Shown here piece after piece: positions 4,821 through 20,386 of a DNA stretch of 21,938 nucleotides. Origin of the DNA: a bacterium (GTDB lineage: Bacteria; Blakebacterota; Blakebacteria; Blakebacterales; Blakebacteraceae); NCBI GenBank assembly GCA_025774615.1, contig JALGVQ010000026.1, positions 1 through 21,938 on the forward strand, in the 5' to 3' direction. Each line of letters starts with the position of its first letter. Position 1 is the stretch's first letter. The notes under the pieces are model-generated. The model saw nothing but the letters and a program-made list of their open reading frames with translations. It did no database searches and had not been told where the DNA came from. The position numbers were made by a program, and so were the translations under genes.

Positions 4821-5120
4821 CTGTTCAGCATAGGCGATTTCTGCAGGTCTGGCAGGCGGAATAACCGTGAAACAGCACCACAGCTCAGACGTTTTAAAAG
4901 AGAGGTAGTAGCAGATGTGGATTTCTGCTACAATTAACTCGTGACTGCAACCTCCTCAGCCAGGTGAGATCAGTATGCCCACGATCCCCGGCCGGAAGAC
5001 AGTCATTCCGAGACGTTCAGCTTTGCCTATTGTGTGAATGGTGGAGTTCGTCTGAAGACACGAGAAGGGGTCGGCCTCTCTGCTTGCCCTTTGGGCTCGT
5101 GTTTGCCCTTTTACCAGGAG
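4821..5120. other. Non-coding interval between divergent genes
   Basis: About 300 bases (355 counting from the preferred ATG at 4766) separate the hydrolase from the KamA gene. Two overlapping short open frames (4956-5180 minus, 4964-5182 plus) lack ribosome sites and known motifs, so I do not call them. The interval holds a candidate extended -10 promoter with an inverted repeat (4908-4934). A TTGCCCTTT word occurs twice just before the KamA ribosome site. Nothing else stands out. Confidence 0.5.
4908..4934 (+). promoter_or_regulatory. Extended -10 promoter overlapped by an 8-bp inverted repeat
   Basis: TGCTACAAT (4926-4934) matches an extended -10 element (TGnTATAAT) with one mismatch in the hexamer; no good -35 is visible. 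A perfect inverted repeat, GTAGCAGA (4908-4915) and TCTGCTAC (4924-4931) with an 8-base spacer, overlaps it. It could be an operator controlling the downstream KamA gene, or a chance hairpin. Confidence 0.3.
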
Positions 5121-5126
5121 ATGCCT

Positions 5127-6620: not shown

Positions 6621-7970
6621 ATGGTAGCTTTTTCCCGGAAGAAGGCGAGCAAGGAACCTGCCGACGTGGTTCCGCCCTCACCCTCAGAAGCGTCATCGCC
6701 AACCCCATCCTCGATCTCTACGGGACATCTCCTGATTCTGAACAGAATCCTCTCTGCTACCCGGGGTCCTTATGATGTGCAGGAACTTCTCGATCTGCTG
6801 GTAAAGGAGATCGTGGACGCTGTCGGAGCGCGGTGGGGAACGATCAAATTGAAGGCGGAGGAAGAGGACACGGTCCATACCATGATCCGTCGTCCGGGGA
6901 TCCGTGCCGGTACGGTTCCCAGGGCCATGGAGAACACCGCTTTCTTCCTGGTGATGGGTACCGGTGATACCCTGGTCATCGATGACCTGGAGGCCGATTC
7001 CCGCTTTCCTGATTCGACACAGGAAGCAAAACCGGCAAAATCGCTTCTTGCGGTTCCCATCCAGCACCAGGGAGAGGTGATAGGTGTTCTGGCACTTGTC
7101 GATTCAAAGGAAGGCCGCCCCTTCAGAGACGAGGATATCGGGCTGACAACTCTCCTGGCGACTGAGGCCGGTCCGTTGATAGAAAATGCCCGTCTTGTCC
7201 AGGAAGCGCTGGCTCAGCGTGCCATGGAACGGGAACGGGAACTGGCTGAAGATGTCTGGAAACGTTTTCTGCCGTCGGTGTTGCCTGAAGTCGAAGGGTT
7301 CGATATCGCCGCGAACTGCCTTCCTGCCCAGCGTATCGGAGGGGACTACTACGACGTCATCAGTCTTCCGGATGGAAGAACCCTCGTGGCATTGGGAGAT
7401 GTCTCAGGCTCAGGGATGCCGGCCGCACTGCTTATGAGCAATCTGCAGGCAGCTCTGAGGGTGAGTCTGGGCGCCAGTACCGATCTCCCGACGCTTGCTG
7501 CCGCGGTGAACAGACATATCTGTTCCACTACCGACGCGGAACGGTACGCAACACTCTTCATGGGGATCATGGACCCCGGCAGGTGCGTCTTTTCTTTCGT
7601 GAACGCCGGGCACAATCCACCGGTGATCTTCCGGAGTGATGGAAGCTATCAGGAACTCGCGGCAACCGGCATACCGGTCGGGTTTCTTCCCGATGCGCAA
7701 TATGAGTCCGCCGAAATCAACCTTTCGGACGGTGACAGGCTTATGATCCACTCTGACGGGATCCCGGAGGCATTCTCGGTTCAGGATGAGATGTTCGGTG
7801 ATGATCGTCTGATTGAACTGGTGGCCGGAAAGAGTGGTCTATCGGCTCAGGAACTTCTGGAATCGATCCTCACTGCGGTTGATGAGTGGAGTATGGGATC
7901 AGACGCCTATACCGACGATCGAACGCTGGTCATTCTGAACTGCTGCAAGGATCCGACCTGTCAGGAATAG
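6621..7970 (+). CDS. GAF-domain SpoIIE/RsbU-type serine phosphatase (PP2C)
   Basis: A 449-residue protein phosphatase of the partner-switching type. A Ser/Pro-rich leader (1-35) precedes a GAF sensor domain (about 36-195, including LLAVPIQHQGEVIGVLALVD), a short helical linker (195-215) and the SpoIIE-type PP2C domain (about 225-441). The metal-binding acidic residues are present: GGDYYD (D242), GDVSG (D260), SDG (D379) and DDRT (432-435). SDGIPEA replaces the commoner TDGVTEA. There are no membrane segments, so it is cytosolic. Family members dephosphorylate STAS antagonists and thereby release a sigma factor or another target from a kinase. The neighbouring STAS gene (8005-8358) is an obvious candidate substrate, although it is on the other strand. 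ATG 6621 has GGAG six bases upstream. Confidence 0.9.
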   Translation: MVAFSRKKASKEPADVVPPSPSEASSPTPSSISTGHLLILNRILSATRGPYDVQELLDLLVKEIVDAVGARWGTIKLKAEEEDTVHTMIRRPGIRAGTVPRAMENTAFFLVMGTGDTLVIDDLEADSRFPDSTQEAKPAKSLLAVPIQHQGEVIGVLALVDSKEGRPFRDEDIGLTTLLATEAGPLIENARLVQEALAQRAMERERELAEDVWKRFLPSVLPEVEGFDIAANCLPAQRIGGDYYDVISLPDGRTLVALGDVSGSGMPAALLMSNLQAALRVSLGASTDLPTLAAAVNRHICSTTDAERYATLFMGIMDPGRCVFSFVNAGHNPPVIFRSDGSYQELAATGIPVGFLPDAQYESAEINLSDGDRLMIHSDGIPEAFSVQDEMFGDDRLIELVAGKSGLSAQELLESILTAVDEWSMGSDAYTDDRTLVILNCCKDPTCQE

Positions 7971-8004: not shown

Positions 8005-8358
8005 TTAGCCCCCCTTTTTCTCCTTCAACACCTCGACTGCCTCATCAATCGATTCGTACGTGTCGAAGACCTTCACGACCTGCGTCAGCATGAAGAGGGA
8101 GTTCACTTTCTTCCCCGCCCGGGCTACTACCATCTCTCCACCGGCATTCCGGCAACTGGTGAGACAGCCCATAAGGAGTCCCAGGCCAGATGAATTGAGC
8201 CATTCCACCTTGCCCATATCCAGGACTACCCATGGGAGGTTGTCTTCGATCAGTTCCTTGACCCGGTTATGACATTCCTGCTGATCCGGTCCACCCATCA
8301 TCTTCCCGGAAACGCTGATGACGACGACCCCTTCCCTGATATTCTCTTTCACTTTCAT
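8005..8358 (-). CDS. STAS-domain anti-sigma factor antagonist
   Basis: A 117-residue single STAS domain. VISVSGKM is the first strand, VVLDMGKVEWLNSSGLGLLMGC holds the phosphorylation loop (Ser 56/57 in NSSG), and VVKVFDTYESIDEAV is the C-terminal helix. Proteins of the SpoIIAA/RsbV type bind an HPK-like kinase and release its partner when their serine is unphosphorylated. This gene is the last in the minus-strand export operon, whose first gene is an RsbW-like kinase. A GAF-PP2C phosphatase lies next door, so all three partner-switch components are at hand. ATG 8358 has a strong AGGAGG site. The gap of 116 bases to the upstream gene and a TATATA element before the ribosome site leave room for its own promoter. 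Confidence 0.9.
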   Translation of the reverse strand: MKVKENIREGVVVISVSGKMMGGPDQQECHNRVKELIEDNLPWVVLDMGKVEWLNSSGLGLLMGCLTSCRNAGGEMVVARAGKKVNSLFMLTQVVKVFDTYESIDEAVEVLKEKKGG

Positions 8359-8385
8359 GGTGGTACCCTCCTTGTATATACACGC

Positions 8386-8404
8386 CAGGCGCAGGGTGCG
8401 CCTG
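8386..8404. repeat. GC-rich hairpin in the gap before the STAS gene
   Basis: CAGGCGCA and TGCGCCTG (8386-8393 and 8397-8404) form a perfect 8-bp stem with a GGG loop on the plus strand. Just beyond it are TCCGGCCGGA and a repeat of GGCCGGATA. The structure lies in the 116-base gap between the GAF-HlyD gene and the STAS gene, so it could attenuate or process the operon transcript. There is no T-tract. Confidence 0.35.
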
Positions 8405-8474
8405 TCCGGCCGGATAACGGGCCGGATACAGCATCCGAAAATGGGACGGCCGTGATACGGAGGTGTTTAGTCGC

Positions 8475-10385
8475 TCACGACCACCATCGGAGCGCGACAA
8501 ACCTGACAAATGGTCTGGCCACGAACCAGAAGAGGCTCCTGCGGCCCAGTTGGACCTTGCCGACACCGGTCATTCCGGGTCTGACGCCGTCTGGAGCGCT
8601 TATCCGGGACGTGGCGATCAGTACCCGCTTGCCATCCCGGGTGTTCAAAGCGGTCGGCGCAAGGATATCCACCTCTCCATCGAACGTCTGTTCGACATAG
8701 GCGTAGAATTTCATCTTCACCGACTGGCCGAGTTCGACCCGGTACCAGTCCCGCTCGGGAAGCGCGATCTCCACCCTGAACTCATCGAGTGTCCCCACTT
8801 CACAGAAGACATCTCCTGAAGCAAGGAAATCTCCTTCCCGTTCTTCGACATGCGGTGTGATGACGATGGCAGGGAAGGGTGGGGCGATTGTTGTGGCTGC
8901 CAGGTCTGCGCTGAGGAGATTGAGCTGCTCCTGCAATGCGGCCCGGTCGGCGGCGGCCTGCTGGGCAGCGTAGTGATCACTGCGAGCCCGCGCGGCAGCC
9001 TCATCGCGGATCGCTTTGTCGAGAGCGCCCTCGACATCGCGGTACCGCATCTCGGTCTCGAGACTGCGCAATTTGCCGACCGGATTGTCAGGATCGACAA
9101 CATCACCTTCTCTCGCGAAGACCTCGTCCACTATCCCGGCGACGGGAGCCCGCAACTGGAGCCGCTCACCCGGGTACACTACCGCAGTTCCTCCGGTCCG
9201 ATACGGGACCTTCACCAGGAGAAGAGCCGCCAGTACCAGAGCCACCGGGATACCGGTGGTTTTCATCCTCTTCCTGCCCGCTTCCCATAACTTGCGACGC
9301 TTCTCCATCAACGGTTCGAGAAAACTGATGAAGGGTACCTGGTGGTAGAGTTCAGCGTTCCGGATGGCGACCGAGGCCTGGTTGGTCATGATCCGCAGCA
9401 GTTCGATCTCCTCGTCGCCGGGCAGACCGCTGGTGCCGAGCTGGCAGTAAGCGCCCATGATTCCCTGATCGTCCTTGAGCGGAACGCCCCAGAAGCTCGT
9501 TGTTCCCGTGGCCTCGAAATGCTCGCGGAAGAGGTCCCGTCCCTCCCCTTCAGGAAGATCCTTCAGGGTGGTTGCGATCTCGGTGTCGGCCAGAACGATG
9601 TACTCCATCAGACGCTGGAGGGATTCCCGCTCCTGCTTCTCCGGTTTCTCTCCGCCGATCTCATCGATGTTGAAGGCGCTCCCCTTCTGCATGCCGATGG
9701 CACAGTATTTCAGTTCGGCCAGCGCCGAAGCCATGGTCACCATCGTCTTGAGGATGCGGTCGAGATCGAGGGTGGAAGTGATTTCCTGACTGATCTTGAG
9801 CAGAGTGTCAAGGTCGCGGAGCCGTTTCTCCAGCTGGTTGTAGAGCAGGGCGTGGTTCAGGGCTACCGCGGTGTGATGCCCGAGACTCGCGAGAAACGCC
9901 AGTTCACCGTCGTCGAACGACTCACCGGTGGACTTGTCTCCCACAACGAGCGCACCGGTTAGCTCCTCCTCGATGAAGAGCGGTACGTAGACGGCATAGC
10001 CCGGATCGGTCAATCCCGATTCCCACTCCTCGGCATCGAGAATGGTCTGCCGCGTGACCGGCACCTTCCGTAACGATGCGATCCAGAGGGCGGTGACATC
10101 GGACTCACTCCGCTTGAAGGCGTCCAGTTCCTCCTCCTCGAGACCCTGGTTGGCCAGGATGTCGAACACTGCACCGCCCTGTGAATAAGTGATCACCAGA
10201 CCGCGGGAGGCGAAGACGCTGTCAAGGACGCTCTCCAATAGCTCACGTCCGATCACGCGTTCTTCATGGGTGGACGCAGTCAGCATCCCCGCCTGATTGA
10301 TCAGAAGCAGCCGACTGGCGGTTTGCTCCAGCTGGCGATAGGCCGCGTCCAATTCCTGTCGAATGTTCTCAATTTCGTTTGTCAT
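8475..10385 (-). CDS. GAF-GAF-TM-HlyD fusion: cytoplasmic sensor joined to a periplasmic adaptor
   Basis: A 636-residue fusion of unusual build. After a coiled coil (1-30), two GAF-like domains follow. The first is about 30-180, with YAVYVPLFIEEELTGALVVGD. The second is about 195-345, with FWGVPLKDDQGIMGAYCQLG, joined by a KRLRDLDTLLKISQEI helix. A basic stretch (KRRKLWEAGRKRMK) leads into one membrane helix (about 378-392). The rest is an HlyD/RND-type adaptor: lipoyl-like LRAPVAGIVDEVFAREGDVV (about 411-430), a short Ala/Arg-rich hairpin, a second lipoyl half, and a beta-barrel with VRPGMTGVGKVQLG near the end. GAF domains would be cytosolic and the adaptor periplasmic, so ligand or redox sensing may be passed to the export machine. 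Its ATG lies one base after the stop of the preceding gene with no ribosome site, so translation is probably coupled. Confidence 0.85.
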   Translation of the reverse strand: MTNEIENIRQELDAAYRQLEQTASRLLLINQAGMLTASTHEERVIGRELLESVLDSVFASRGLVITYSQGGAVFDILANQGLEEEELDAFKRSESDVTALWIASLRKVPVTRQTILDAEEWESGLTDPGYAVYVPLFIEEELTGALVVGDKSTGESFDDGELAFLASLGHHTAVALNHALLYNQLEKRLRDLDTLLKISQEITSTLDLDRILKTMVTMASALAELKYCAIGMQKGSAFNIDEIGGEKPEKQERESLQRLMEYIVLADTEIATTLKDLPEGEGRDLFREHFEATGTTSFWGVPLKDDQGIMGAYCQLGTSGLPGDEEIELLRIMTNQASVAIRNAELYHQVPFISFLEPLMEKRRKLWEAGRKRMKTTGIPVALVLAALLLVKVPYRTGGTAVVYPGERLQLRAPVAGIVDEVFAREGDVVDPDNPVGKLRSLETEMRYRDVEGALDKAIRDEAAARARSDHYAAQQAAADRAALQEQLNLLSADLAATTIAPPFPAIVITPHVEEREGDFLASGDVFCEVGTLDEFRVEIALPERDWYRVELGQSVKMKFYAYVEQTFDGEVDILAPTALNTRDGKRVLIATSRISAPDGVRPGMTGVGKVQLGRRSLFWFVARPFVRFVALRWWS

Positions 10386-10386
10386 A

Positions 10387-12447
10387 TCAGAAGAAGAAAT
10401 CCAGGCGAAGGGTCTGAAAGCCGTTCCGCACCAACTGTGCCCACAGGGATCGGCGCTTACCGAAGAGACGCACCTTGCCCCGCTGACCCGGAACCAGGGC
10501 CAGATCGGTGTTGTCGATCACCAGCTCAACTCCATACCACGATTCGCCGTCCTCGACACGCTCACCCACGAGGTCCATGACGACGATCCTTCCTTCAACA
10601 ACCTCCCATGCCCGTGAAGCAGGTTTGAACTTCACGAGTGAACCATACTCGACATCCGCCATCTCCCGTTCGGGGACCTCCAGACGCACCCTGAGGGAGT
10701 CGGTGATCCCGACCTGGAAGAGTAATTCTCCCTGTCGGACCCAGCGGTGTTCCAGCTCACCCACGTGAGCGTTCAGCACCCGGCCCGAAAGGGGAGACCT
10801 CATGGTCAATCGCCCCTTCCGCTCCAGGATGAGTTCTCTGCTCTCTTCGAGTCTGCGCACCTGTGTGAGACAGCGGTTCGCCTCGGTATTATTTCCCCGG
10901 GCGAATGCTTCTCCAGCCATTGTCTGGAGAGTGGTGATCTCCTGCTCAACACCATTCAGTTCGAGATCGAGAGTGTTGCTCTCGACCACGGCGAGCAGCT
11001 GTCCCTTTTCGATGTATTCACCGGTCTCCACCCGGAGGTCGGTCACCTGACCAGATGCGGCCGCTTCCATGTTTACCTGGTAGTACGGCTCGAGGATACC
11101 GAGACGTTTATCCACCGTCGGCGTGCGTATGAACGCTGGTAAGATGAGCAGCACCAGCAGCACCGAGACGAAAATGGGTATGTTCCTGCGGATGGATCCC
11201 GATCGATCCATGGCTGCCAGTTTCACGAACCCGGCCCCTTTCTTGATGAATCTTCTGAGCAGGATGTACATCAGGAATGCCAGCACGACCCAGCCCATTG
11301 CGGCCCCCCCACTGCCTACCAGCCACTTCTTGAGCAGTCCGAATATGAGAGAGAATATGAAGAGGGAGTAGCAGAAGGCCATGATGGCAAAGGTCAGATA
11401 GATCCGTTTTTCCCTGCGCCCTCCGACGGGCATATCCCCTGGCAGACCGAGAAGGCGCTTCCAGAGATAGCCGAGATAATCGAAGGATCGTTTCCGCAGA
11501 TTCGGAACATCCACGAACTCACTGAGGGCATAGTAGCCGTCGTACTTGAGCAGGGGATTCATGTTGAAGATCCACGAGCTGATGCTTGAGAAGATGATGA
11601 TCTTGAAAGCGAAATCGTGGATGTGAAGAGTGGGGTCGGTAAGCCACCAGATATAGACGAAGATCGCGCCGACGAAAAGTTCCACCAGCGGTCCCCCGAA
11701 AACGACCATCACCCGGGAATATTTCTTCGGAAAGCGGTAACTGTCACTCACGTTACAGAAGAGGGCCGGATTGATCAGGTAGATGATCAGGAGACCCATC
11801 TGGTGGACCTCGCCGCCATAATACTTGCACATGAGTCCGTGTCCGAATTCATGGATCACGATGATCAACAGGATCAGAAGGTAGAGCCCGACGATCTGGA
11901 TCAGCGACCAGCCCTCGAAAACGTAGAAGGAGGAAAGACCGGCCCAGGTCGCTTCCAGGTCCCCGATCAGGATCACATACGAACCGATCACGAAGATCCA
12001 GAAGAAGGTCTGGAACGATTTTGACGCGATCCACTGGAGTCGCTTGATCATCCAGTTGAAAAGGTTGTCGGGATCGATGGCGGACCAGCTCATGTGGAGG
12101 AGGGTATTGTGCTTCTCCCGTTCCCGCCGGACCTTCTCCATCAGGAGGATGTTGTATTCGATCCGATCGCGGAAGATGAGCTTCATCCCGATCAGGTTTT
12201 CGAGGTACTCGTTGATGTACTCCAGATCGAAATCGAACTGGGTGAACTCTTTGCCCAGCTGGTCTGCGATCTCCTGGTGGGAGTGAGCCCCGTCACACAA
12301 CTCGCAGAAGCGTTTTCCCAGTTCGTCGAACTGCATGTATTTGCGCCGCACCGGATCCTTCGCGATGAAGATCTCTTCACCACGCATCACCACCTTCGAG
12401 AAGGTGATGTCCTCACGAAGCTTCGGATATCCGGGAGCGTCCGACAT
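10387..12447 (-). CDS. PqqD-M50-HlyD fusion: membrane metalloprotease and adaptor of a peptide system
   Basis: A 686-residue three-part protein. Residues about 10-95 are PqqD-like (YMQFDELGKRFCELCDGAHSHQEIADQL), a fold that binds substrate peptides in RiPP pathways. The central part (about 140-445) is a polytopic M50 site-2-type protease. It has zinc motif HEFGH (199-203), a cytosol-facing loop, NPLLKYDGYY (297-306) with the third ligand D303, and about seven or eight hydrophobic helices. The last helix (428-445) leads into a periplasmic HlyD-like adaptor (about 446-686) with VNMEAAASGQVTDLRVETGEYIEKGQ and a short coiled coil. Such proteins are often annotated 'putative peptide zinc metalloprotease', the class of B. 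subtilis YydH, which is linked to a secreted modified peptide. Start ATG 12447 has AGGGG eight bases upstream. I infer a role in processing and export of the repeat peptide. Confidence 0.87.
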   Translation of the reverse strand: MSDAPGYPKLREDITFSKVVMRGEEIFIAKDPVRRKYMQFDELGKRFCELCDGAHSHQEIADQLGKEFTQFDFDLEYINEYLENLIGMKLIFRDRIEYNILLMEKVRREREKHNTLLHMSWSAIDPDNLFNWMIKRLQWIASKSFQTFFWIFVIGSYVILIGDLEATWAGLSSFYVFEGWSLIQIVGLYLLILLIIVIHEFGHGLMCKYYGGEVHQMGLLIIYLINPALFCNVSDSYRFPKKYSRVMVVFGGPLVELFVGAIFVYIWWLTDPTLHIHDFAFKIIIFSSISSWIFNMNPLLKYDGYYALSEFVDVPNLRKRSFDYLGYLWKRLLGLPGDMPVGGRREKRIYLTFAIMAFCYSLFIFSLIFGLLKKWLVGSGGAAMGWVVLAFLMYILLRRFIKKGAGFVKLAAMDRSGSIRRNIPIFVSVLLVLLILPAFIRTPTVDKRLGILEPYYQVNMEAAASGQVTDLRVETGEYIEKGQLLAVVESNTLDLELNGVEQEITTLQTMAGEAFARGNNTEANRCLTQVRRLEESRELILERKGRLTMRSPLSGRVLNAHVGELEHRWVRQGELLFQVGITDSLRVRLEVPEREMADVEYGSLVKFKPASRAWEVVEGRIVVMDLVGERVEDGESWYGVELVIDNTDLALVPGQRGKVRLFGKRRSLWAQLVRNGFQTLRLDFFF

Positions 12448-12483
12448 CAGGTGCCCCTGCTGTCCTGGTGTATCGGCATTCCG

Positions 12484-13407
12484 TTACTCCTGCTCCTGCC
12501 TCAGCTCTACAGGCATTCCCACCCGCAATGTGCTGAACGAACTCGTTCTCCTTACTTCGACGGTGATCTTGATGCCGCCACCAGGATCCACCACCGGGCT
12601 GATCAATTTGATGGTTCCTGAAATAGTGAAGTTACTGCCATCCGGATCGACCAGCAGCGTGACCTCATCGCCAACTTCCGGCGGCTGCGACCAGGAGTCC
12701 CGGGGGACCATGAACACAGCCCAGAGGATGTCGAGGTCGGCGACCGTGAAGCACTCTTCCTGTGTGCCGATCCACTGGCCCTGTTGGATCCTTCGTTCGA
12801 TAACATGGCCGGAGATCGGTGCGGTGATGTCGGTGTAACCCAGTTCGATAGCCGCCAGCGCGGAATCGGCCTGCGCCTGCAGATATTCGGCCCGGCTGAC
12901 TTCGAGTTCAAGTTCGGAGACGATCCTGATCCTCGCCTCTTCCGCGAACGCTTCGAGGTTCCGGAGGTAGATGGCCCGGGTGCGTCCGGCCTCTGCCGCA
13001 GCTATGGCTGCTCTCAGTTTGTGTGTTTCACGGTCGAGCGAGGCGAGTACATCTCCCTCTGCAACCCGATCACCTTCCTCGACATGAAGTGAGTTCACCA
13101 TTCCGGAAACGCGGTTGAGCACGATCACCCGTGACCTGGCCGTAAGGATGGTCATGTGCCGACGCCCATCCTCCGGATTGAATCTGTACCGACCCGGTTC
13201 TTGCTGGCGAAATGCCAGGCGCTCCTCCACCGATGGTGCTCGCAGTGGTGTTCGTACAGGTTCTGGAACCGGCGGGTCGGCAGCAGATATGGGCTGTACC
13301 GCTTCTTCAACGGCGGTGTTATCCGAAGCAGAACCATTGCCGCATGCCGCGACAGTGGCAGTGACCAGGATCGCAGCCATCATGATCAGGAACGCATTCT
13401 TCTTCAC
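12484..13407 (-). CDS. HlyD/RND-type periplasmic adaptor lipoprotein
   Basis: A 307-residue membrane fusion protein with a lipoprotein signal (MKKNAFLIMMAAILVTATVAAC, Cys22). An acidic, Pro-rich linker follows. Next come a lipoyl half (VIVLNRVSGMVNSLHVEEGDRVAEGDVLASLD, about 95-125), a helical hairpin (about 126-185), a second lipoyl half (DITAPISGHVIERRIQQGQWI) and a beta-barrel (AVFMVPRDSW to VGMPVELRQEQE). Adaptors of this type link an inner-membrane component to a TolC channel; the TolC partner is probably the 15665-17332 product. No RND or ABC pump gene is in the window. The start is GTG 13407 with AGGAG eight bases upstream. The gene lies in the middle of the export operon, 28 bases after the M50 gene and 36 before the PqqD-M50-HlyD gene. 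Confidence 0.88.
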   Translation of the reverse strand: MKKNAFLIMMAAILVTATVAACGNGSASDNTAVEEAVQPISAADPPVPEPVRTPLRAPSVEERLAFRQQEPGRYRFNPEDGRRHMTILTARSRVIVLNRVSGMVNSLHVEEGDRVAEGDVLASLDRETHKLRAAIAAAEAGRTRAIYLRNLEAFAEEARIRIVSELELEVSRAEYLQAQADSALAAIELGYTDITAPISGHVIERRIQQGQWIGTQEECFTVADLDILWAVFMVPRDSWSQPPEVGDEVTLLVDPDGSNFTISGTIKLISPVVDPGGGIKITVEVRRTSSFSTLRVGMPVELRQEQE

Positions 13408-13435
13408 GAGTGTTGCTCCTTGCAGGAACAGAGTC

Positions 13436-14485
13436 TCACAGTCGATTCAGCCCTTTCCGGGCTATCCGGTAGATCACGTACAGAACCAGCAGCAGCCAGT
13501 CAGCCACCGCTGTGAACACGAGCAGGAACAGGGCCAGACCCAGCCGGGTGACCTCGAGAGCCACCTGGGTGAATGGCGCGGCTTTCCACCGTTCGCGCCA
13601 GTCTGGTGCTTTCCTCATCCTCACGAGAGGCTTCCAGCTGACGGCCTCCCGCAGGATCATCGCCATATCGCTGCTGCCCGAAGGGGCAAACGCGTAGACC
13701 AGGAAGTAGACTGTCTGAGGAAGGAGCAGGAAGAGGGGAACAGGGCCGGGTGCCAGAATCCACCATATCCAGGCTCCCACCCACCAGACCGTATCGCTCA
13801 ACAGTCCGCCAGCATAGTACCAGATTCTGTCACCGGGTGTCAGGAGGATATCCCGGTTTGAAAGCACATAGAAATTGAAGTTCCGCTGGATGCCGATCTC
13901 AGGGACTTCTCCGTCGAACCGGCGGATAGCCAGCGCATGCCCCAGCTCATGGAAGAACGCCGTGACCGAGTAACCCAGGTAGTAACCGAGGATGACGATC
14001 AGTGGTCCGCCGATCAGATGGAGGCGGGCCAGATCACCGATACCGGCGATGATCTCCGAACCGATCGCGAACGTCAGTACGAACCCGGTGACCGCCAGCA
14101 GAAGGGCCGAGATTCCCACCCACCGTTTGCCATAAAGATGTTGCAGTGGCTTCAGAAGTCGCAGGAGTCCCGCCGGATCGAACTTGACCATCCGGCGCGA
14201 TTTCACTTCGGAACCATCCAGGTACCCGTAGGTGACCCAGCGCTTGAGGATGTCCTGTACGTCCTTCTCTTCGAGATCCCACCCGTACCGGCTGTTTATC
14301 TCTTCACACAGGTCGTGCAGGGACCTTCCATCGCAGGCCTGAAGGACCGTAGCGGTCCCATCGTCGATGATGAACGCATCCAGGCCGGGACCTGTGATGT
14401 AGACAGCACCCTCCTTCAGCGTCTGGTATTCGACGCCCTCCCTGACGAGGGGATTGTCGAGCGGGGAGACGGATTCAGACTGCAT
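13436..14485 (-). CDS. PqqD-domain M50 membrane metalloprotease without an adaptor domain
   Basis: A 349-residue protein resembling the front two-thirds of the PqqD-M50-HlyD fusion. A PqqD-like domain (about 15-92; FIIDDGTATVLQACDGRSLHDLCEEI) precedes a membrane domain with HELGH (179-183) in a hydrophobic helix. SSDMAMI (D273) is the likely third zinc ligand. There are about six helices, the last near 325-343. The NPLL.YDGYY motif of the larger protein is replaced, so the two M50 proteins are divergent paralogues and may form a pair. The ATG follows GGAG by seven bases and overlaps the end of the kinase gene by 11 bases, which suggests coupled translation. I infer it cleaves or conducts a peptide substrate; the substrate is not proven. 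Confidence 0.85.
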   Translation of the reverse strand: MQSESVSPLDNPLVREGVEYQTLKEGAVYITGPGLDAFIIDDGTATVLQACDGRSLHDLCEEINSRYGWDLEEKDVQDILKRWVTYGYLDGSEVKSRRMVKFDPAGLLRLLKPLQHLYGKRWVGISALLLAVTGFVLTFAIGSEIIAGIGDLARLHLIGGPLIVILGYYLGYSVTAFFHELGHALAIRRFDGEVPEIGIQRNFNFYVLSNRDILLTPGDRIWYYAGGLLSDTVWWVGAWIWWILAPGPVPLFLLLPQTVYFLVYAFAPSGSSDMAMILREAVSWKPLVRMRKAPDWRERWKAAPFTQVALEVTRLGLALFLLVFTAVADWLLLVLYVIYRIARKGLNRL

Positions 14486-14930
14486 GGGAGTCTCCGGAGG
14501 CCGGTAGTACGATGGTGAGGATGTTCCAGCCGTCTTCAGAGTATTCGTATGCTGTCGAACGGGCCATCCGGATCACCAGCGGCAGGCCCCGCTTTCCCTC
14601 CATCAACTGGATCTCCGGCTGCTCGACCTGAAGGGGATCGAACGCCGGTGACCGGTCTCTGATGATAAGCGTGGTTTGTACCGCGTCCGTTTCCAGGGAG
14701 AGTTCTATCGGTCCTTCCCTTTCCCCATACCCATGGTTGAGGATGTTCAGCACGATCTCTTCGACAACCAGTTCGATGGTAAGAATGAGATCCTGATTAC
14801 CCGAAATACCGGGAGATGACCGGCAGAACTGAAGCAGGGTCTCAAGCGCTTCAGGTCCGGATGTGACACTGATCTGCCGGGAGGGGTTCACCATGGCTTT
14901 ATCGGCTGTTCCTCTCACATCGGTCGTCAT
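14475..14930 (-). CDS. RsbW-like anti-sigma kinase (HATPase domain)
   Basis: A small GHKL-type ATPase of the RsbW/SpoIIAB class, about 151 residues. The N-box is ILTIELVVEEIVLNILNHGY, the G1 region is IIRDRSPAFDP, and the lid/G2 region is MEGKRGLPLVIRMA. Family members phosphorylate a STAS antagonist and sequester a sigma factor or other partner. Here the kinase gene heads the operon that ends with a STAS gene. The start is uncertain: ATGs at 15011, 14930 and 14894 are in frame and none has a good ribosome site. I choose 14930 because the stretch 14931-15011 is AT-rich, unlike the neighbouring coding DNA, and holds repeated TTCCACA words that look regulatory. Confidence 0.82.
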   Translation of the reverse strand: MTTDVRGTADKAMVNPSRQISVTSGPEALETLLQFCRSSPGISGNQDLILTIELVVEEIVLNILNHGYGEREGPIELSLETDAVQTTLIIRDRSPAFDPLQVEQPEIQLMEGKRGLPLVIRMARSTAYEYSEDGWNILTIVLPASGDSHAV

Positions 14931-14957
14931 TGTTACGAACAATCCCGGAAAAGGCAG

Positions 14958-15013
14958 GAATTCCACATTTTCTGCGGATTTTTCTTCCACACTGACAGGA
15001 GAATTCCACATTT
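14958..15013. repeat. 13-bp direct repeat and three TTCCACA words upstream of the export operon
   Basis: GAATTCCACATTT occurs exactly at 14958-14970 and again at 15001-15013, 43 bases apart. The core TTCCACA occurs a third time at 14985-14991. The set lies just upstream of the preferred kinase start, where promoter and regulator sites for the minus-strand operon are expected. The protein that might bind is unknown. Confidence 0.4.
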
Positions 15014-15079
15014 CGGTGAGGAAGTGCAGCGCAGTCGTTCTGATAGAGATCGGGCCGGAAAGCAGTGTGTCTGTTGTCA

Positions 15080-15105
15080 GTCAACGAGTTACGGGAATCG
15101 TTGAC
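15080..15105. promoter_or_regulatory. Dyad upstream of the sigma-54 promoter, candidate activator site
   Basis: GTCAACGA (15080-15087) and TCGTTGAC (15098-15105) are a perfect 8-bp inverted repeat with a 10-base spacer. The dyad ends 15 bases before the -24 element of the sigma-54 promoter, so its centre is near -54. This is a plausible upstream site for the sigma-54 activator encoded at 18641-20386. It also lies between the two divergent transcripts and could affect both. Confidence 0.5.
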
Positions 15106-15120
15106 AAACATCTTACTAGT

Positions 15121-15136
15121 TGGCACAGCCTTTGCA
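15121..15136 (+). promoter_or_regulatory. Sigma-54 (RpoN) promoter of the repeat-peptide gene
   Basis: TGGCACAGCCTTTGCA matches the -24/-12 consensus TGGCAC-N5-TTGCA fully. The GG (15122-15123) and GC (15134-15135) pairs are the required 12 bases apart. Transcription should begin near 15147, leaving a leader of about 35 bases before the ATG at 15182. A cognate AAA+ activator is encoded nearby at 18641-20386. Confidence 0.85.
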
Positions 15137-15181
15137 TCTACAACGGGCCATGAACTATTCACCATACAAGGGGGTATCAGG

Positions 15182-15553
15182 ATGACTGACGAACCACGTA
15201 AGCCGGTATTCAAGGACAACGAAGAGCTCGAGGAGAAGGAAGCTCCCCGTCGGGCCCCGATGGGTGAGGAACTGCAGGAGAAGGAAGCACCGAGGCGCGC
15301 TCCGATAGGTGAGGAGCTGCAGGAGAAGGAAGCCCCGCGTCGGGCTCCGATCGGTGAAGAGCTGCAGGAGAAGGAAGCTCCCAGGCGCGCTCCGCTCGGT
15401 GAGGAACTGCAGGAGAAGGAAGCCCCGCGTCGGGCCCCGCTCGGCGAAGAGCTGCAGGAGAAGGAAGCTCCCAGGCGCGCTCCGATGGGTGAGGAACTCC
15501 AGGAGAAAGAAGCACCGCGTCGGGCACCCATGGGTGAGGAACTGCAGGAGTAG
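15182..15553 (+). CDS. Tandem-repeat peptide, seven 15-residue repeats, candidate export substrate
   Basis: A 123-residue protein that I do not recognise. A 13-residue start (MTDEPRKPVFKDN) is followed by seven 15-residue units, EELQEKEAPRRAP[M/I/L]G (the first has EELEE), and a final EELQE. It has no Cys or Ser, one Thr, one Phe, no signal peptide or membrane helix, and net charge near -11. Differences between units are mostly third-position changes or Met/Ile/Leu swaps, so this frame has been under protein-level selection. ATG 15182 has GGGGG seven to eight bases upstream. A longer in-frame start at 15065 lies upstream of the sigma-54 promoter and is rejected. The gene stands alone between that promoter and a strong terminator. 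It is divergent from the PqqD/M50/HlyD operon and convergent with the TolC group. I infer that it is the substrate of that machinery; a structural or stress role is an alternative. Confidence 0.85.
   Translation: MTDEPRKPVFKDNEELEEKEAPRRAPMGEELQEKEAPRRAPIGEELQEKEAPRRAPIGEELQEKEAPRRAPLGEELQEKEAPRRAPLGEELQEKEAPRRAPMGEELQEKEAPRRAPMGEELQE
15221..15550 (+). repeat. 45-bp tandem repeats, seven full units and a partial eighth
   Basis: Units begin at 15221, 15266, 15311, 15356, 15401, 15446 and 15491; a 15-base partial copy starts at 15536. The Arg-Arg codons alternate strictly, CGT CGG in units 1, 3, 5 and 7 and AGG CGC in units 2, 4 and 6. The array has therefore grown, at least in part, by copying a 90-bp double unit. 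Confidence 0.95.
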
Positions 15554-15624
15554 GGGTACTCGCGCTCACAGGTTGCAGTACCCGAAGCCTTGCTTACACC
15601 TTGGTAGGGTAAACCGACCCGTGG

Positions 15625-15666
15625 CGGGGGTGTTGGACCGAGCATGGTTCAGCACCCCCGTTTTTT
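15625..15666 (+). terminator. Intrinsic terminator of the repeat-peptide gene
   Basis: A 15-bp stem (15625-15639 with 15646-15660, two G-T wobbles) has a 6-base loop (GAGCAT) and is followed directly by six T residues (15661-15666). It lies 71 bases after the peptide stop and touches the stop codon of the opposing TolC gene. Confidence 0.9.
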
Positions 15667-17332
15667 ATCTGCCACGTTCGAATGGCTCGGGTGGTGTGGT
15701 CTGCCGTCTGATCATTTGATCCGTTTCCCAATCCCACATGGTGATTTCCCGCAGTTCGGCCTTGGCCATCTCGAAATCGATCAATGCTCTGATGAACAGT
15801 GATTCGGTCTCGAGATATCGGCCCTGGACTGAAAGCAGCACCGTGTAATCGATCTCACCCTTTTCGAAGAGTTCCTGGCTGACTTCGTATGCGGTTCGGG
15901 CGAGTTCCCGATTGCCGGACTGCATCTCCATCCGCTGCATGGAGCTGCTGACTTCGTTCACCCGTTCGATGACATCCCGGTGCAGGTCGTCCTGGACCTC
16001 TTCGACCTCACGCTCCAGAACGGCCCTCTCCGAGAGAAGCCGCTGTACCCGTGTCTGGTTGGTTCTGTAATCGAAGACAGGGACGTTCAGGGAAATGGAG
16101 ATGTTTGTGTTGGAGCGGAAATTCTCGGTGGCCATTCCAGCGCTGAGATGAGTGCCCCAATCGGACCGGATATCATAGCCGGGGATTGTCGAATTACCCG
16201 AGAGATCGTAACCGAGGTTCAGCTGCAGGTCAGGTCGACTCCGGGCGGCGACCTGCTCGATCTCAAGGTCGGCCTTCTCAACCTCGATAGTTGCCCGACG
16301 CATATCCGAACGATTCTGGAGGGCCCGTTCAACCGCCAGGTCGGGATTCACCTCAAGAGGGACGAATCGGTCACTGGCATTTGCCCACACCCGCTCGGAA
16401 AGAGCCAGACCAAGATGACGGTTGAAATCGAGTCGGGTACTGAGCAACGAGCTCCTGGTGCGTTCCAGCTGGTCGCGGCTGTTCACCATCACTACTTCCA
16501 GGTTCAGTTTCTCCATCTCGGAGATGAGACCCAGTTCGTATTTCCTCAGTCCTGCCCGGTGATTGACCATATTCTGGCGGTGGATCTCAGAGACAATCTC
16601 CAGCTCCTGCTGCTCCTCGTAAAGAGCGTAGAAGGCTCGTGTTACATCATTGAGTCGGCTCAACTCGACCTCGCCATAGCTCAACTGCAGGGCTTCCAGA
16701 TCGAGTGTCGCTCCCTTCAATTCACCCTTGATGGTGTTGTATTGCAGAAGGGGTTGATTGAACTGGATCCGGAACTGAGGAGAGATGTACCGGAGATCAG
16801 CCGCTGGACCCGGAATCATCTGCAGGTCACGTTCATAGCCTCGCAATCGGCTGCTGAACGTGATCGATCCATTGGTGATCAGAGGCTGAACCACGTTCAG
16901 GGTCGCGCCGAAGTCGAGGATGTCATCCTTGAAGAGTGCCAGGTCCAGAGTGCCGTCATAATCGGTGAACAGCCTGTTAGCGAATCCCTGAGTGATCCTC
17001 GGGAGCGTGGAATTCAGATGCACACGGGTTTTCAGGCTTCGCCTGACCGTCTCGAGACTATATGAAAGCTGCAGATACCGCTGCTTGAGCCGGTAGATGT
17101 CGTACGATTCATCCAGGGCGATCCTGATGGCATCATGCAGTGTCATCACAACCGTGACATCCGACCGGGTGTTCTGCCCGGCATTCTGGATGGCGGCTGA
17201 CAACATATCTCCTGTGGATGGAGTCTCCATTGATGCTCCCTGCGCTCCGGCTGAATTAAGTGGGATCATCAGCAGGAGTAATGCGATCGCAGCGAAAGAA
17301 TGGATGGTCGTGCTTCCGTTTCTCAGGCGCAT
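15665..17332 (-). CDS. TolC-family outer-membrane efflux protein
   Basis: A 555-residue outer-membrane channel with a signal peptide (FAAIALLLLMIPLNSAGAQG). Two related halves follow, about 60-290 and 330-540. They carry the long helices and short strands of TolC: LHDAIRIALDESYDIYRLKQRY opens the first half and AVERALQNRSDMRRATIEVEKADLEIEQV the second. Strand-like LNLGYDLSG and ISISLNVPVFDY precede the final helices. As a trimer it would form a tunnel through the outer membrane, docked to the HlyD-type adaptors of the divergent operon. It is the last gene of the activator/Kelch group; ATG 17332 has GGGAG nine bases upstream. Its stop abuts the T-tract of the peptide gene terminator, so the two transcripts meet end to end. 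Confidence 0.9.
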   Translation of the reverse strand: MRLRNGSTTIHSFAAIALLLLMIPLNSAGAQGASMETPSTGDMLSAAIQNAGQNTRSDVTVVMTLHDAIRIALDESYDIYRLKQRYLQLSYSLETVRRSLKTRVHLNSTLPRITQGFANRLFTDYDGTLDLALFKDDILDFGATLNVVQPLITNGSITFSSRLRGYERDLQMIPGPAADLRYISPQFRIQFNQPLLQYNTIKGELKGATLDLEALQLSYGEVELSRLNDVTRAFYALYEEQQELEIVSEIHRQNMVNHRAGLRKYELGLISEMEKLNLEVVMVNSRDQLERTRSSLLSTRLDFNRHLGLALSERVWANASDRFVPLEVNPDLAVERALQNRSDMRRATIEVEKADLEIEQVAARSRPDLQLNLGYDLSGNSTIPGYDIRSDWGTHLSAGMATENFRSNTNISISLNVPVFDYRTNQTRVQRLLSERAVLEREVEEVQDDLHRDVIERVNEVSSSMQRMEMQSGNRELARTAYEVSQELFEKGEIDYTVLLSVQGRYLETESLFIRALIDFEMAKAELREITMWDWETDQMIRRQTTPPEPFERGR

Positions 17333-17394: not shown

Positions 17395-18402
17395 CTATCG
17401 CTCATATCCGCCGATGACATAGAAAATTCCGTTGATGACACCTGACGCTGCTTCAGCCCGCGCAGTAGGCATGGATGGGCCGGTTGACCAGGTGTTGGTA
17501 GCAGGATCGTAGATCTCCAGTACCGAGGTATCACTCCCCGAGCCGAGCAGGCCGCCGACAACGTACAGCTTGCCGCTGATGACCCCGGCTTCCATCTCTC
17601 CCCGTGCGGTCGGCATGGCGATCAGGGTGTTCCATGAACCACCCGATATGGTCGACTCCAGGGTTCCAGTGACCGTCTCGCCACCCAGGTATCCGCCGAC
17701 GACATAGATCGTGCCGTTGATGACACCGGCCGCTCCCTGTCCCCGGCCGGTCGGCATCGTACCGATTGTCAGCCAGTTGTTCAGGACCGGGTCGAATACC
17801 ATGACGGTCGCGACATCATCCCGTTCTTCTGCCGGAGTGAACTCCAGTCCTCCAGCCACATAGATCTTGTTGTTCACTACTGTGACAGCGGGACCGAAGA
17901 GCTTGATGGGCATGGAGGGACCGGTAGACCAGGAGTTCGTGGCGGGATCGTAGATCTCCAGAATGTCGAAGAAAACCGCACTCGATTGCGCCCCGCCGAA
18001 GACATAGAGTTTGCCGTTAAGTGCTGCGGCTCCCGGTCCCCAGCGCGCGGTCGGCATCGATGCCTTTGAAGCCCAGGTGTCAGTAGCCGGATCGTAGACC
18101 TCAAGCACGTTGTATACCGGTTTGCTTCTGAGCTTCCGGTCATTTCCACCCACGACGTACAGTTTGCCGTCGATCACAGCTGCCCCGGCGGTGCTTCGAG
18201 GGGTGATCATGGAGGAGTCGGCCGTGGCCCAGGTCCCGGTGACGGGGTTGTAGTATTCCACGACACTCAGTTCCGGAACGGGAGGCGGTGGCGGCTCGGT
18301 TGGTCCGCTGCAGTTTCCCAATACAAAGATCACGGCGACCGCGCTGGTCAACATGGCGGTGATCCTGATTTTCCGGAATCGGGAGTGTAGGGATCTGGGC
18401 AT
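17395..18402 (-). CDS. Kelch-repeat lipoprotein, six-bladed propeller
   Basis: A 335-residue lipoprotein. The start is ATG 18402, with AGGAGG seven bases upstream; an in-frame start at 18504 would overlap the upstream small gene and bury the signal. The signal (TAMLTSAVAVIFVLGNC) is followed by a Pro-rich spacer (TEPPPPPVPE). Six Kelch motifs follow, each with a YVVGG-like strand (VVGGN, VFGGA, VAGGL, VVGGY, VVGGL, VIGGY) and most with YDPATNTWSTGPSMPTAR-like strands. Kelch propellers bind proteins or sugars; an enzymatic role is not indicated. It sits between the 60-residue gene and TolC, so a periplasmic or surface role tied to the export system is plausible. The binding partner is unknown. 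The blades are also similar at the DNA level, for instance around 17483-17520 and 17930-17965. Confidence 0.88.
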   Translation of the reverse strand: MPRSLHSRFRKIRITAMLTSAVAVIFVLGNCSGPTEPPPPPVPELSVVEYYNPVTGTWATADSSMITPRSTAGAAVIDGKLYVVGGNDRKLRSKPVYNVLEVYDPATDTWASKASMPTARWGPGAAALNGKLYVFGGAQSSAVFFDILEIYDPATNSWSTGPSMPIKLFGPAVTVVNNKIYVAGGLEFTPAEERDDVATVMVFDPVLNNWLTIGTMPTGRGQGAAGVINGTIYVVGGYLGGETVTGTLESTISGGSWNTLIAMPTARGEMEAGVISGKLYVVGGLLGSGSDTSVLEIYDPATNTWSTGPSMPTARAEAASGVINGIFYVIGGYER

Positions 18403-18461
18403 GGTACAACCTCCTCCAACGTGCTGAGTGTGATATGTCGACATCGACTGATCCAGTCTGT

Positions 18462-18644
18462 TCACCCGCTCTCTGAACTCTGTTCCGGATCGGTCTGCTC
18501 CCACAGATAGTCCGAAAGGCGGTCCAGGATCGCGAGATAGTCTTCAGGCAATTTCAGGAACTTCTCTCTCAAGGTCTTCCGTGCTTCGTCCCGGTCAGCA
18601 CAGTCCCGGAGCACGATCGATGCCGATTCCAGGTATCCGGTCAT
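18462..18644 (-). CDS. Small 60-residue protein coupled to the sigma-54 activator
   Basis: A short, mainly helical and acidic protein (LREKFLKLPEDYLAILDRLSDYLWEQ) that I do not recognise. Its ATG overlaps the activator's TGA in an ATGA junction (18644-18641), a common sign of coupled translation, so it is probably a real gene. It has no signal peptide or membrane helix. Its position directly after the activator suggests a modulator or partner of it, but that is inference only. Confidence 0.6.
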   Translation of the reverse strand: MTGYLESASIVLRDCADRDEARKTLREKFLKLPEDYLAILDRLSDYLWEQTDPEQSSESG

Positions 18645-20386
18645 TTCCCGACGATGACCGCGGCAGCCTCAGGGATCACACCATCATGCTCCAGGAAGAG
18701 CCGGAAACACTCCACCTGGAAGTAGTAGGTGAGACTGCTCCGGTCGGTCAGGGGCGGGGGATTGTCGGGGTCGGTCCTGGACTGTGAGGTCAGGGTCTCG
18801 GCAGTGGCTTTGACGTTGAATCGATGACGCTGGAGCAGGTCGACGACCCAGATACCCCTCTCAATGCCGGCTCTGCGCGGAAAGACCATCTCTTCCGGGG
18901 CAGATGCAACAGGCGGTATGGCATCAGGCGGAATGGCCTCAGGGGAAGGTGTCAGTTCGATCTCAATGCCGTTGTCCCCGGAGCGCTGGCCGAGAGCTTC
19001 GTCGATCGCCTCGATCGATATCTCGTCCTTCCCCGTCGACCTGAGAAGCGCCCATTCCACCAGGTGCCGGAATTCACGGATATTCCCCGGGAAATCATGC
19101 TGCATCAGTCGCTGGATGAAGTCTTCAGTCATGAGTGGTACCGGCAGCCCGTTCTCGGTCGCGCAGAATTTCAGGTAGTGTGCCGCAAGGCGCGGGATGT
19201 CCTCCTTGCGTTCCCGCAGCGGGGCGATACGGATCGGGTACACATAGAGGCGGTAGAAGAGATCTTCCCGTAACGATCCATCTTCCACCGCTTCCCTGAG
19301 ATCCCGGTTCGAGGCAGCGATGACCCGCACATCCACCTCGGTACTCTGTTCCCCTCCGATGGGGCGGAATCGCCGTTCCTGGAGCACCCTCAGCAGCCGG
19401 TTCTGGGTCTGCAGGGGCAGGTTGGCCACCTCATCCAGGAAGAGCGTGCCTCCGCTGGCGAGTTCGAACACTCCTTTTCGTGACTGAGTGGCCCCGGTGA
19501 ATGAGCCTTTCGTGTGCCCGAAGAGTTCACTCTCGATCAGGCTCTCGGGAACCGCGCCGCAATCCAGTTCTATGAATGGTCCTTCCTGACGCGAACTCAG
19601 CCGGTGCAGCACTTTGGCGGCGAGTTCCTTACCACTTCCGGTTTCCCCTTCGAACAGGACTGTGCAGGAGGATTGGGCTACGGCGGTCAGCCGTTCGTAG
19701 AGATCGAGAACAGCGTGACTTTCACCCACGATCTCGCTTAAAATCGGGTATCGCTGTCGGAATTCCTGTATCGATGGGGGGGCCGGTTGCAGGTCAGATC
19801 CCATTTCTCCGCTAAAGCGTCCGAGCGCGACAGCTATGAGATAGCCAACCGATCCGAGAAGCCCGAGAAGGAACGGTTCATAGGGACGGTTGAGAGGATT
19901 GGTTCCCAGGGCGATCAGGCCGAGCAGTTTTCCCCGTTCCGAAAGCGGTAGTATCATTTCAGGATGCAGTGACTCGAGCCATGCCGGAGCTGGTGAGCTG
20001 ACTGGATCACTGTCAGACAGGTCGATCGATTGTATCTCGCTCCAGAGCAGGGGCTGGGAGTGGTCGGCAAGGAAGGTGAGCCACTCCTCGGGTAGATCAG
20101 CCGGGCCGATAGTCTGGTCGGGTTGACCGCAGGCGCTCAGGAGCCGCAGTGAAGAACCGGCATCCGATAAGGCCCAGAGAAAGCCCCATTCGGAGCCGGC
20201 AAGCCCCATGGCAGCGGTCAGGGCGTCGAATGCCAGGTGCCCGGGTGTCCGGGAACCAAGGAGAACACGACTGACCTCATAGAGGGTAGTCAATTCGTAG
20301 ATGCGTTGAGTCGAATCTACAGAGGATTCCAGATCAGAAGTGTCCACAGTGCATCCATCGTATGCGTGCGAGGCTTGAAGTGTCAA
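18641..20386 (-). CDS. Sigma-54-dependent activator, GAF plus AAA+ domains
   Basis: An enhancer-binding protein of up to 581 residues. A GAF-like input domain (about 25-195) precedes the AAA+ domain (about 212-450). The AAA+ domain has Walker A GETGSGKE (247-254), GSFTGA (294-299; Ser for the usual Ala in the loop that contacts sigma-54), Walker B TLFLDE (314-319) and FPGNIREFRHL. A Pro-rich linker (about 478-505) leads to a C-terminal region (IWVVDLLQRHRFNVKATAETL to SSLTYYFQVECFRLFLE) that fits a Fis-like helix-turn-helix with an insert. There is no receiver domain, so the signal is probably a ligand sensed by GAF. It should act at the sigma-54 promoter at 15121. The start is uncertain: TTG 20386 and GTG 20347 both lack a ribosome site, and a promoter-like element covers the first. 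Downstream genes, to TolC, follow closely. Confidence 0.9.
   Translation of the reverse strand: MTLQASHAYDGCTVDTSDLESSVDSTQRIYELTTLYEVSRVLLGSRTPGHLAFDALTAAMGLAGSEWGFLWALSDAGSSLRLLSACGQPDQTIGPADLPEEWLTFLADHSQPLLWSEIQSIDLSDSDPVSSPAPAWLESLHPEMILPLSERGKLLGLIALGTNPLNRPYEPFLLGLLGSVGYLIAVALGRFSGEMGSDLQPAPPSIQEFRQRYPILSEIVGESHAVLDLYERLTAVAQSSCTVLFEGETGSGKELAAKVLHRLSSRQEGPFIELDCGAVPESLIESELFGHTKGSFTGATQSRKGVFELASGGTLFLDEVANLPLQTQNRLLRVLQERRFRPIGGEQSTEVDVRVIAASNRDLREAVEDGSLREDLFYRLYVYPIRIAPLRERKEDIPRLAAHYLKFCATENGLPVPLMTEDFIQRLMQHDFPGNIREFRHLVEWALLRSTGKDEISIEAIDEALGQRSGDNGIEIELTPSPEAIPPDAIPPVASAPEEMVFPRRAGIERGIWVVDLLQRHRFNVKATAETLTSQSRTDPDNPPPLTDRSSLTYYFQVECFRLFLEHDGVIPEAAAVIVGK
20357..20386 (-). promoter_or_regulatory. 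Candidate sigma-70 promoter at the start of the activator gene
   Basis: On the minus strand TTGACA (20386-20381) is a perfect -35, followed by 18 bases and TACGAT (20362-20357), a four-of-six -10. It overlaps the TTG start of the longest frame. If used, transcription would begin near 20350 and the protein would start at GTG 20347 (nearly leaderless) or further in. Confidence 0.45.

Follow-up and report, generated by a model that had tools for sequence, protein, structure and literature searches.

What is the function of a lone gene for a repetitive peptide that lies between an operon for membrane peptidases and adaptor proteins and a gene for an outer membrane channel? This question is raised by contig JALGVQ010000026.1 of a Blakebacteraceae bacterium (GenBank assembly GCA_025774615.1), whose whole analysed stretch of 21,938 nucleotides is called the window below. 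The gene in question is the following:

15182-15553, plus strand: repeat peptide gene, a 123-amino-acid (aa) open reading frame (ORF) read in the window sequence

Our analysis suggests that each repeat unit carries a recognition tag for the RRE-M50 proteins encoded by the adjacent operon. The further proposal that the peptide is a tandem array of recognition and cleavage tags, which is cut after each EKEAP and exported as 15-mers by HlyD and TolC proteins, has in our judgement about an even chance of being correct.

The peptide consists of the 13-residue lead-in MTDEPRKPVFKDN, a first unit EELEEKEAPRRAPMG, six units of the form EELQEKEAPRRAP(I/I/L/L/M/M)G and a terminal EELQE, i.e. seven full 15-residue units, EEL(E/Q)EKEAPRRAP(M/I/L)G, and a last partial one. 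Its composition is of low complexity and rich in Glu, Ala and Pro. Neither a Sec signal nor a hydrophobic segment was found in its 123 residues, and Cys, Ser and Thr are absent from the repeat units. Comparison of all pairs of units yielded 119 synonymous and 22 nonsynonymous codon differences (mean nonsynonymous rate dN 0.05, mean synonymous rate dS 0.87). As the units differ mostly by silent changes, the protein sequence is kept by purifying selection. The first-pass annotation had described seven 15-residue repeats with a sigma-54 promoter and a terminator of their own, and all three elements were confirmed (gene 15182-15553; box 15121-15136; terminator 15623-15662).

The leader motif ELExMEAP is a feature of daptide precursors, whose genes adjoin those of RRE-site-2-protease fusions (PMC10036551). 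Cleavage occurs after this motif, as in TfDapA1 (QELEAMEAP-GFW) and SaDapA1 (EELETLDAL-WNW) (PMC12338566). In MpaA, the exchange L(-7)A leads to loss of binding for MpaB/C. The window unit EELEEKEAP-RRAPMG corresponds to the daptide motif with Lys in place of Met, and it is arranged in tandem, whereas daptides have a single leader copy. Unit 1 (ELEEKEAP) agrees with six of the seven fixed positions of ELExMEAP, a score equalled by 352 of 100,000 shuffled units (0.35%) and by none of 738 background ORFs. Units 2-7 (ELQEKEAP) agree with five of the seven, which 2.5% of the shuffles reach. These shuffle frequencies, the low-complexity composition and the post hoc choice of the pattern would fit a chance likeness in a Glu/Ala/Pro-rich repeat, the peptide then being an unrelated disordered protein under sigma-54 control. 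We consider this very improbable indeed in view of its conserved core and position in two genera and of the independent tagged neighbours of RRE-M50 genes, both described below.

Clear relatives of the peptide were detected in only two others of the 98 genomes searched, G001 from the same genus and G002 from the same family as the window's genome (G000). A scan of genome contigs returned only these two near relatives, the matching contigs being those of the metagenome-assembled genome (MAG) bacterium Meg22_46_Bin_213 and Candidatus Latescibacterota bacterium RS_11_2. The fourth sampled family member, G003, showed no relative in an assembly that is 63% complete (window genome 82%; G000 and G001 82-85%; G000-G003 63-85%). 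The G001 homologue (L010:11659) comprises ten units, compared with seven in the window. In the G002 homologues (L011/L012) the core LEEKEAPR(R/K) is kept at a spacing of 21 or 12 residues, while the linkers differ in length and sequence. Conservation of the core between genera despite drifting linkers is as expected for a bound site. Moreover, the peptide gene stays beside the RRE-M50 operon in both genera. The question of whether related clusters lack a repeat peptide, put forward with the first-pass annotation, received a mixed answer: the repeats occur only in the window's family (three of four sampled genomes), and other lineages carry the recognition motif once per protein. As a separate observation, in G002 the RRE-M50 and repeat peptide genes flank a MATCAP/QEGLA-type metallopeptidase gene (L011:1984-3249) in place of the HATPase gene.

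In six other genomes, one-copy tags head proteins whose genes lie next to related RRE-M50 genes, namely EELEERIAP-ARL (G345), ETLEERIAP-TLV (G087), KLDEIVAP-GAL (G178 and G031) and daptides in G111 and G247 (including ELETMEAP). Some of these comparisons were picked after the motif had been seen, and the G087 peptide was found once the motif was fixed. This small peptide (L031:9217-9486), ...FTLSVETLEERIAPTLVVGVGAGVGVGVGAG...GGCDCEEEDSCD, is encoded directly upstream of an RRE-M50 gene and has a daptide-like leader and a tail that is both Gly/Val-rich and Cys/acidic. In G178 (L092:217-3360) and G031 (L090:1471-4872), KLDEIVAPGALG heads proteins of 1048 and 1134 aa, respectively, which are encoded divergently to RRE-M50-HlyD and are possibly large cargo with an AP-type tag. 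In a peptidase tree, the enzymes that accompany giant proteins with an LEPR-type N-terminus formed one supported group and the window enzyme was placed outside it, next to those of G031 and G178 (Shimodaira-Hasegawa-like approximate likelihood ratio test, SH-aLRT, 92), so that the tag class is clustered on the tree. The ELExxEAP-type motif in every unit and its one-copy versions beside RRE-M50 genes elsewhere thus lend good support to the idea, already voiced in the first-pass annotation, that the peptide would be recognised by the PqqD/RRE-M50 proteins.

Within G000 and G001, LEEK/LEER-x-AP is a convincing coding motif only in the repeat peptide; the few remaining LEE(R/K)xAP matches fall in a different reading frame or at an internal position, or carry a different residue at the Arg/Lys place. 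This result bears on the explanation that the peptide is a cytoplasmic multivalent decoy or regulator, which would occupy or cluster RRE domains and thereby control the peptidase or exporter, with the true cargo encoded elsewhere. No other convincing tagged protein was found in these two assemblies (82-85% complete), and tagged neighbours in other genomes resemble cargo. A decoy is therefore improbable, although it would suit a peptide that holds no core sequence besides the tag and has its own sigma-54 control apart from the operon, and although partner-switch proteins of the STAS, HATPase and SpoIIE types suggest a regulated machine.

The operon is located on the minus strand on the other side of the intergenic region shared with the peptide gene, which is divergent to it and convergent with the TolC gene. 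Beyond the peptide gene follow genes for TolC, a kelch protein and a sigma-54 activator. The operon genes in their order, and the channel gene, are:

14475-15011, minus strand: RsbW-like HATPase_c_2 protein (PF13581), first operon gene
13436-14485, minus strand: RRE (PqqD-like)-M50 membrane peptidase of 349 aa with HELGH (NF041824 5.9e-9; PqqD E 0.0021)
12484-13407, minus strand: HlyD/RND-type periplasmic adaptor of 307 aa with a lipobox-like TVAACG (TIGR01730 above cut-off)
10387-12447, minus strand: RRE-M50-HlyD fusion of 686 aa with intact HEFGH and NPLLKYDG (NF041824 1.1e-51)
8475-10385, minus strand: GAF-GAF-TM-HlyD adaptor of 636 aa with a transmembrane segment (TM) (domain search)
8005-8358, minus strand: STAS protein of the anti-sigma-antagonist type, last operon gene (domain search)
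15665-17332, minus strand: TolC-type outer membrane channel (OEP 2e-35)

The two M50 proteases and three HlyD-type adaptors in one operon with TolC nearby, as originally annotated, were borne out by domain searches. Both M50 proteins retain HExxH. With NF041824, the NCBIfam model of the daptide intramembrane metalloprotease (cut-off 300), the 686-aa protein scored 176 bits and the 349-aa protein 35.5 bits, compared with 405 bits for the genuine daptide enzyme of G111. By sequence, the window proteins are probably homologues of the daptide metalloprotease outside the equivalog. A search of solved structures with the 349-aa protein yielded no relative, nor did a search of viral contigs with this protein and with the peptide. 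No ABC, RND or MFS pump was recognised among the main window ORFs in domain searches; ABC-type secretion was rejected for the window. A kelch-repeat protein with a lipobox-like start is encoded beside the exporter genes (17395-18504), and a similar one is found by LEPR-XLL exporter genes of G262 (L034:5311-6819).

On plasmids of Thalassospira, Pseudosulfitobacter and Methylosinus, relatives of the 686-aa protein are accompanied by giant proteins and HlyD adaptors, and also by TolC if the record extends that far. The exporter set is partly present in G262, G231 and G267. The giant cargo proteins start with TLEPRVLLNAD (Methylosinus), PIEPRILLSAD (Thalassospira), ALEPRFLLSAD (Pseudosulfitobacter) and SLEPRVLLSID (G262). 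This N-terminal LEPRxLL is alignable with LEExEAP and perhaps represents the same signal as the tag. Giant proteins with a single such motif adjoining the same exporter set also fit an explanation in which the tags are solely export signals, the 123-residue protein being recognised several times and leaving the cell in one piece, as a disordered, charged polymer of the surface or matrix. The freely varying unit number (seven or ten) is likewise reminiscent of repeat polymers. However, the tag is a cleavage site in daptides, seven copies are superfluous for a secretion signal and both M50 proteins have kept HExxH, and we regard uncut export as unlikely.

SecA-like proteins are encoded beside the peptidase in G262, G267, Pseudosulfitobacter, Methylosinus and Rhizobium and also occur in G231; none was seen in the Thalassospira stretch. 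Two genes annotated as prepilin peptidases (L053:11023-13047 and L054:10090-12084) are SecA-like ATPases according to Pfam. Furthermore, a DUF3467 gene (L052:6466-6759) and a SapC-family gene (L053:10209-11030) were observed inside LEPR-XLL export loci. An accessory SecA was considered as motor and rejected, as a single SecA was found in the window's family (assemblies 63-85% complete).

Control of the peptide gene was deduced from the following elements:

15121-15136, plus strand: sigma-54 -24/-12 promoter of the peptide gene, box TGGCACAGCCTTTGCA, the sole exact match in the window
14961-15010, plus strand: three TTCCACA elements, candidate enhancer sites for the activator, at -221, -197 and -178 from the peptide ATG
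15623-15662, plus strand: strong intrinsic terminator behind the peptide gene (15600-15680 folds at z -4.4)
18641-20386, minus strand: GAF-AAA+ sigma-54 activator with a GSFTGA loop read in the sequence; adjoins the peptide gene in G002
6621-7970, plus strand: GAF-SpoIIE phosphatase (domain search); synteny kept in G001 and G002

The sigma-54 box has an identical 45-nt spacing to the peptide ATG in G000, G001 and G002, and rpoN was found in all three genomes. Genome-wide, the pattern was no commoner than its reversed control, so that a generic sigma-54 regulon was rejected as support and the evidence is the conserved position of the site, not the pattern alone. The TTCCACA elements, spaced by 24 and 19 bases, occupy identical positions in G000 and G001, and one copy is present in G002; their function as enhancer sites is a candidate one. 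With the first ATG taken as its start, the HATPase ORF reaches into these elements with its first codons, and its true start may therefore be further in. A G002 contig that begins within the repeats continues directly into the activator gene, and the GAF-AAA+ protein is the probable regulator of the peptide promoter. The GAF-SpoIIE phosphatase is probably the partner-switch regulator of the STAS/HATPase pair.

The steps of activation, binding, cutting and export proposed from the tag, the peptidase and exporter families and the conserved promoter would be as follows. The GAF-AAA+ activator would switch on the sigma-54 promoter of the peptide gene, and the L(E/Q)EKEAP tag would be bound by the two membrane proteins of 349 and 686 aa through their RRE (PqqD-like) domains (about residues 1-95 of each). 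By analogy with daptides, whose cleavage follows ELExMEAP, the exact predicted site for an M50 cut would lie behind each EKEAP. Cutting would release a 22-residue N-terminal piece, six 15-mers of the form RRAP(M/I/L)GEELQEKEAP and an 11-residue tail. The calculated masses are 1739.86 Da for RRAPMGEELQEKEAP, 1721.91 Da for RRAP(I/L)GEELQEKEAP and 2630.25 Da for the 22-residue head. The pieces would exit through an assembly of RRE-M50-HlyD, GAF-HlyD, HlyD and TolC; we infer this export route from the gene order and from the relatives beside giant LEPR-XLL proteins.

Several observations weigh against this cut-and-export mechanism. Unlike in daptides, the tag is not followed by a hydrophobic core, whereas cleavage by M50 enzymes usually takes place in the membrane. 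The predicted 15-mers would still end in the tag, which distinguishes them from known cores. The adaptors are accompanied by neither an ATPase pump nor an ABC transporter, and no second SecA was found in G000-G003, which showed one only. Other RRE-M50-HlyD loci examined had no tagged neighbour, and the group of all AP-type enzymes was weakly supported in the peptidase tree (33). The structure models were poor (mean predicted local distance difference test score, pLDDT, 51 for the 349-aa protein and 37 for the 686-aa fusion), and the model of the fusion was discarded as unusable. The PqqD domains named in the first-pass annotation score below the Pfam cut-off (E 0.002-0.005), but the ten best Foldseek matches of the low-confidence 349-aa model were RRE-domain proteins, the first being TbiB1 in complex with leader peptides (probability 0.80-1.0, with E 0.07 or worse).

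RRE domains are typical of pathways for ribosomally synthesised and post-translationally modified peptides (RiPPs) (PMC10036551). A multi-core RiPP, whose units would be modified, for instance by the KamA-like radical SAM protein encoded nearby, before being cut and exported, is nevertheless very unlikely. The KamA-family gene (5034-6548), whose product scores below every curated cut-off, precedes the SpoIIE gene in G000 and G001; it is missing from the corresponding place in G002 and was rejected as peptide modifier. No other modifying enzyme was recognised in domain searches of the window ORFs, and the units lack Cys, Ser and Thr.

Compared with known systems, the window resembles daptide clusters (MpaA/MpaP, TfDap; PMC10036551, PMC12338566) in its RRE-M50 peptidase and its ELExxEAP-type leader motif. 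It differs from them in that the motif is repeated seven times without a core and one peptidase is fused to HlyD. The peptide ends in EELQE, the invariant C-terminal Thr and hydrophobic core of daptides both being missing, and neither DapB/C/D/M enzymes nor the daptide ABC transporter was recognised among the main window ORFs. Because the C-terminal Thr, recognisable modifying enzymes and an ABC transporter are lacking in the window, the system is not a daptide. With LEPR-XLL loci (NF012209; Thalassospira, Pseudosulfitobacter and Methylosinus plasmids, G262, G231) it has in common GAF/HlyD, RRE-M50-HlyD, a small HlyD and, where the record reaches, TolC, as well as N-terminally tagged cargo without an obvious Sec signal. 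In contrast to these loci, the candidate cargo is a 123-aa repeat peptide, an additional 349-aa RRE-M50 protein and sigma-54 and partner-switch control are present, and the window contains no giant LEPR-XLL ORF. As the giant substrate is lacking in the window and no second SecA was found in the 82%-complete genome, it is not a LEPR system either. The YydH/LiaK epipeptide metalloproteases (NF058609) share the M50 domain (the 686-aa protein gives 2e-13, well short of the model cut-off), but neither an epimerase nor a YydF-like precursor was recognised in the window. Type I secretion and RND efflux systems (HlyD/TolC) resemble it in their periplasmic adaptors and outer membrane channel and differ in having an ABC, RND or MFS pump.

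The statement in the first-pass annotation that no such system had been described has to be narrowed, since daptides are a described case of the peptidase with the leader motif, and public records list the exporter set next to LEPR-XLL proteins; the two together were not encountered. In the literature searched, which mostly excludes subscription journals, we found no paper joining the daptide motif and RRE-M50 with the LEPR-XLL exporter set, and none on a tandem tag array without a core. The term LEPR-XLL turned up there in two papers, once in each. More tentatively, and with rather less than an even chance, we propose a polyprotein made of tags only, cut into copies of one 15-mer and exported by a pump-less assembly under sigma-54 control, in which a tag logic LE-x-x-x-A/L-P/L read by RRE-M50 proteins would unite daptides, small LEERIAP peptides and giant LEPR-XLL proteins.

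The window links the daptide leader motif and RRE-M50 peptidase with the LEPR-XLL tag and the RRE-M50-HlyD/TolC genes, which were found only apart in this literature. It also offers an interpretation, open to testing, of a peptide family and an exporter set whose mode of action we did not find described there. Should the RRE domain indeed read the tag, a short N-terminal motif could serve to predict the substrates of such clusters, and a natural array of cleavable tags would be present in the window.

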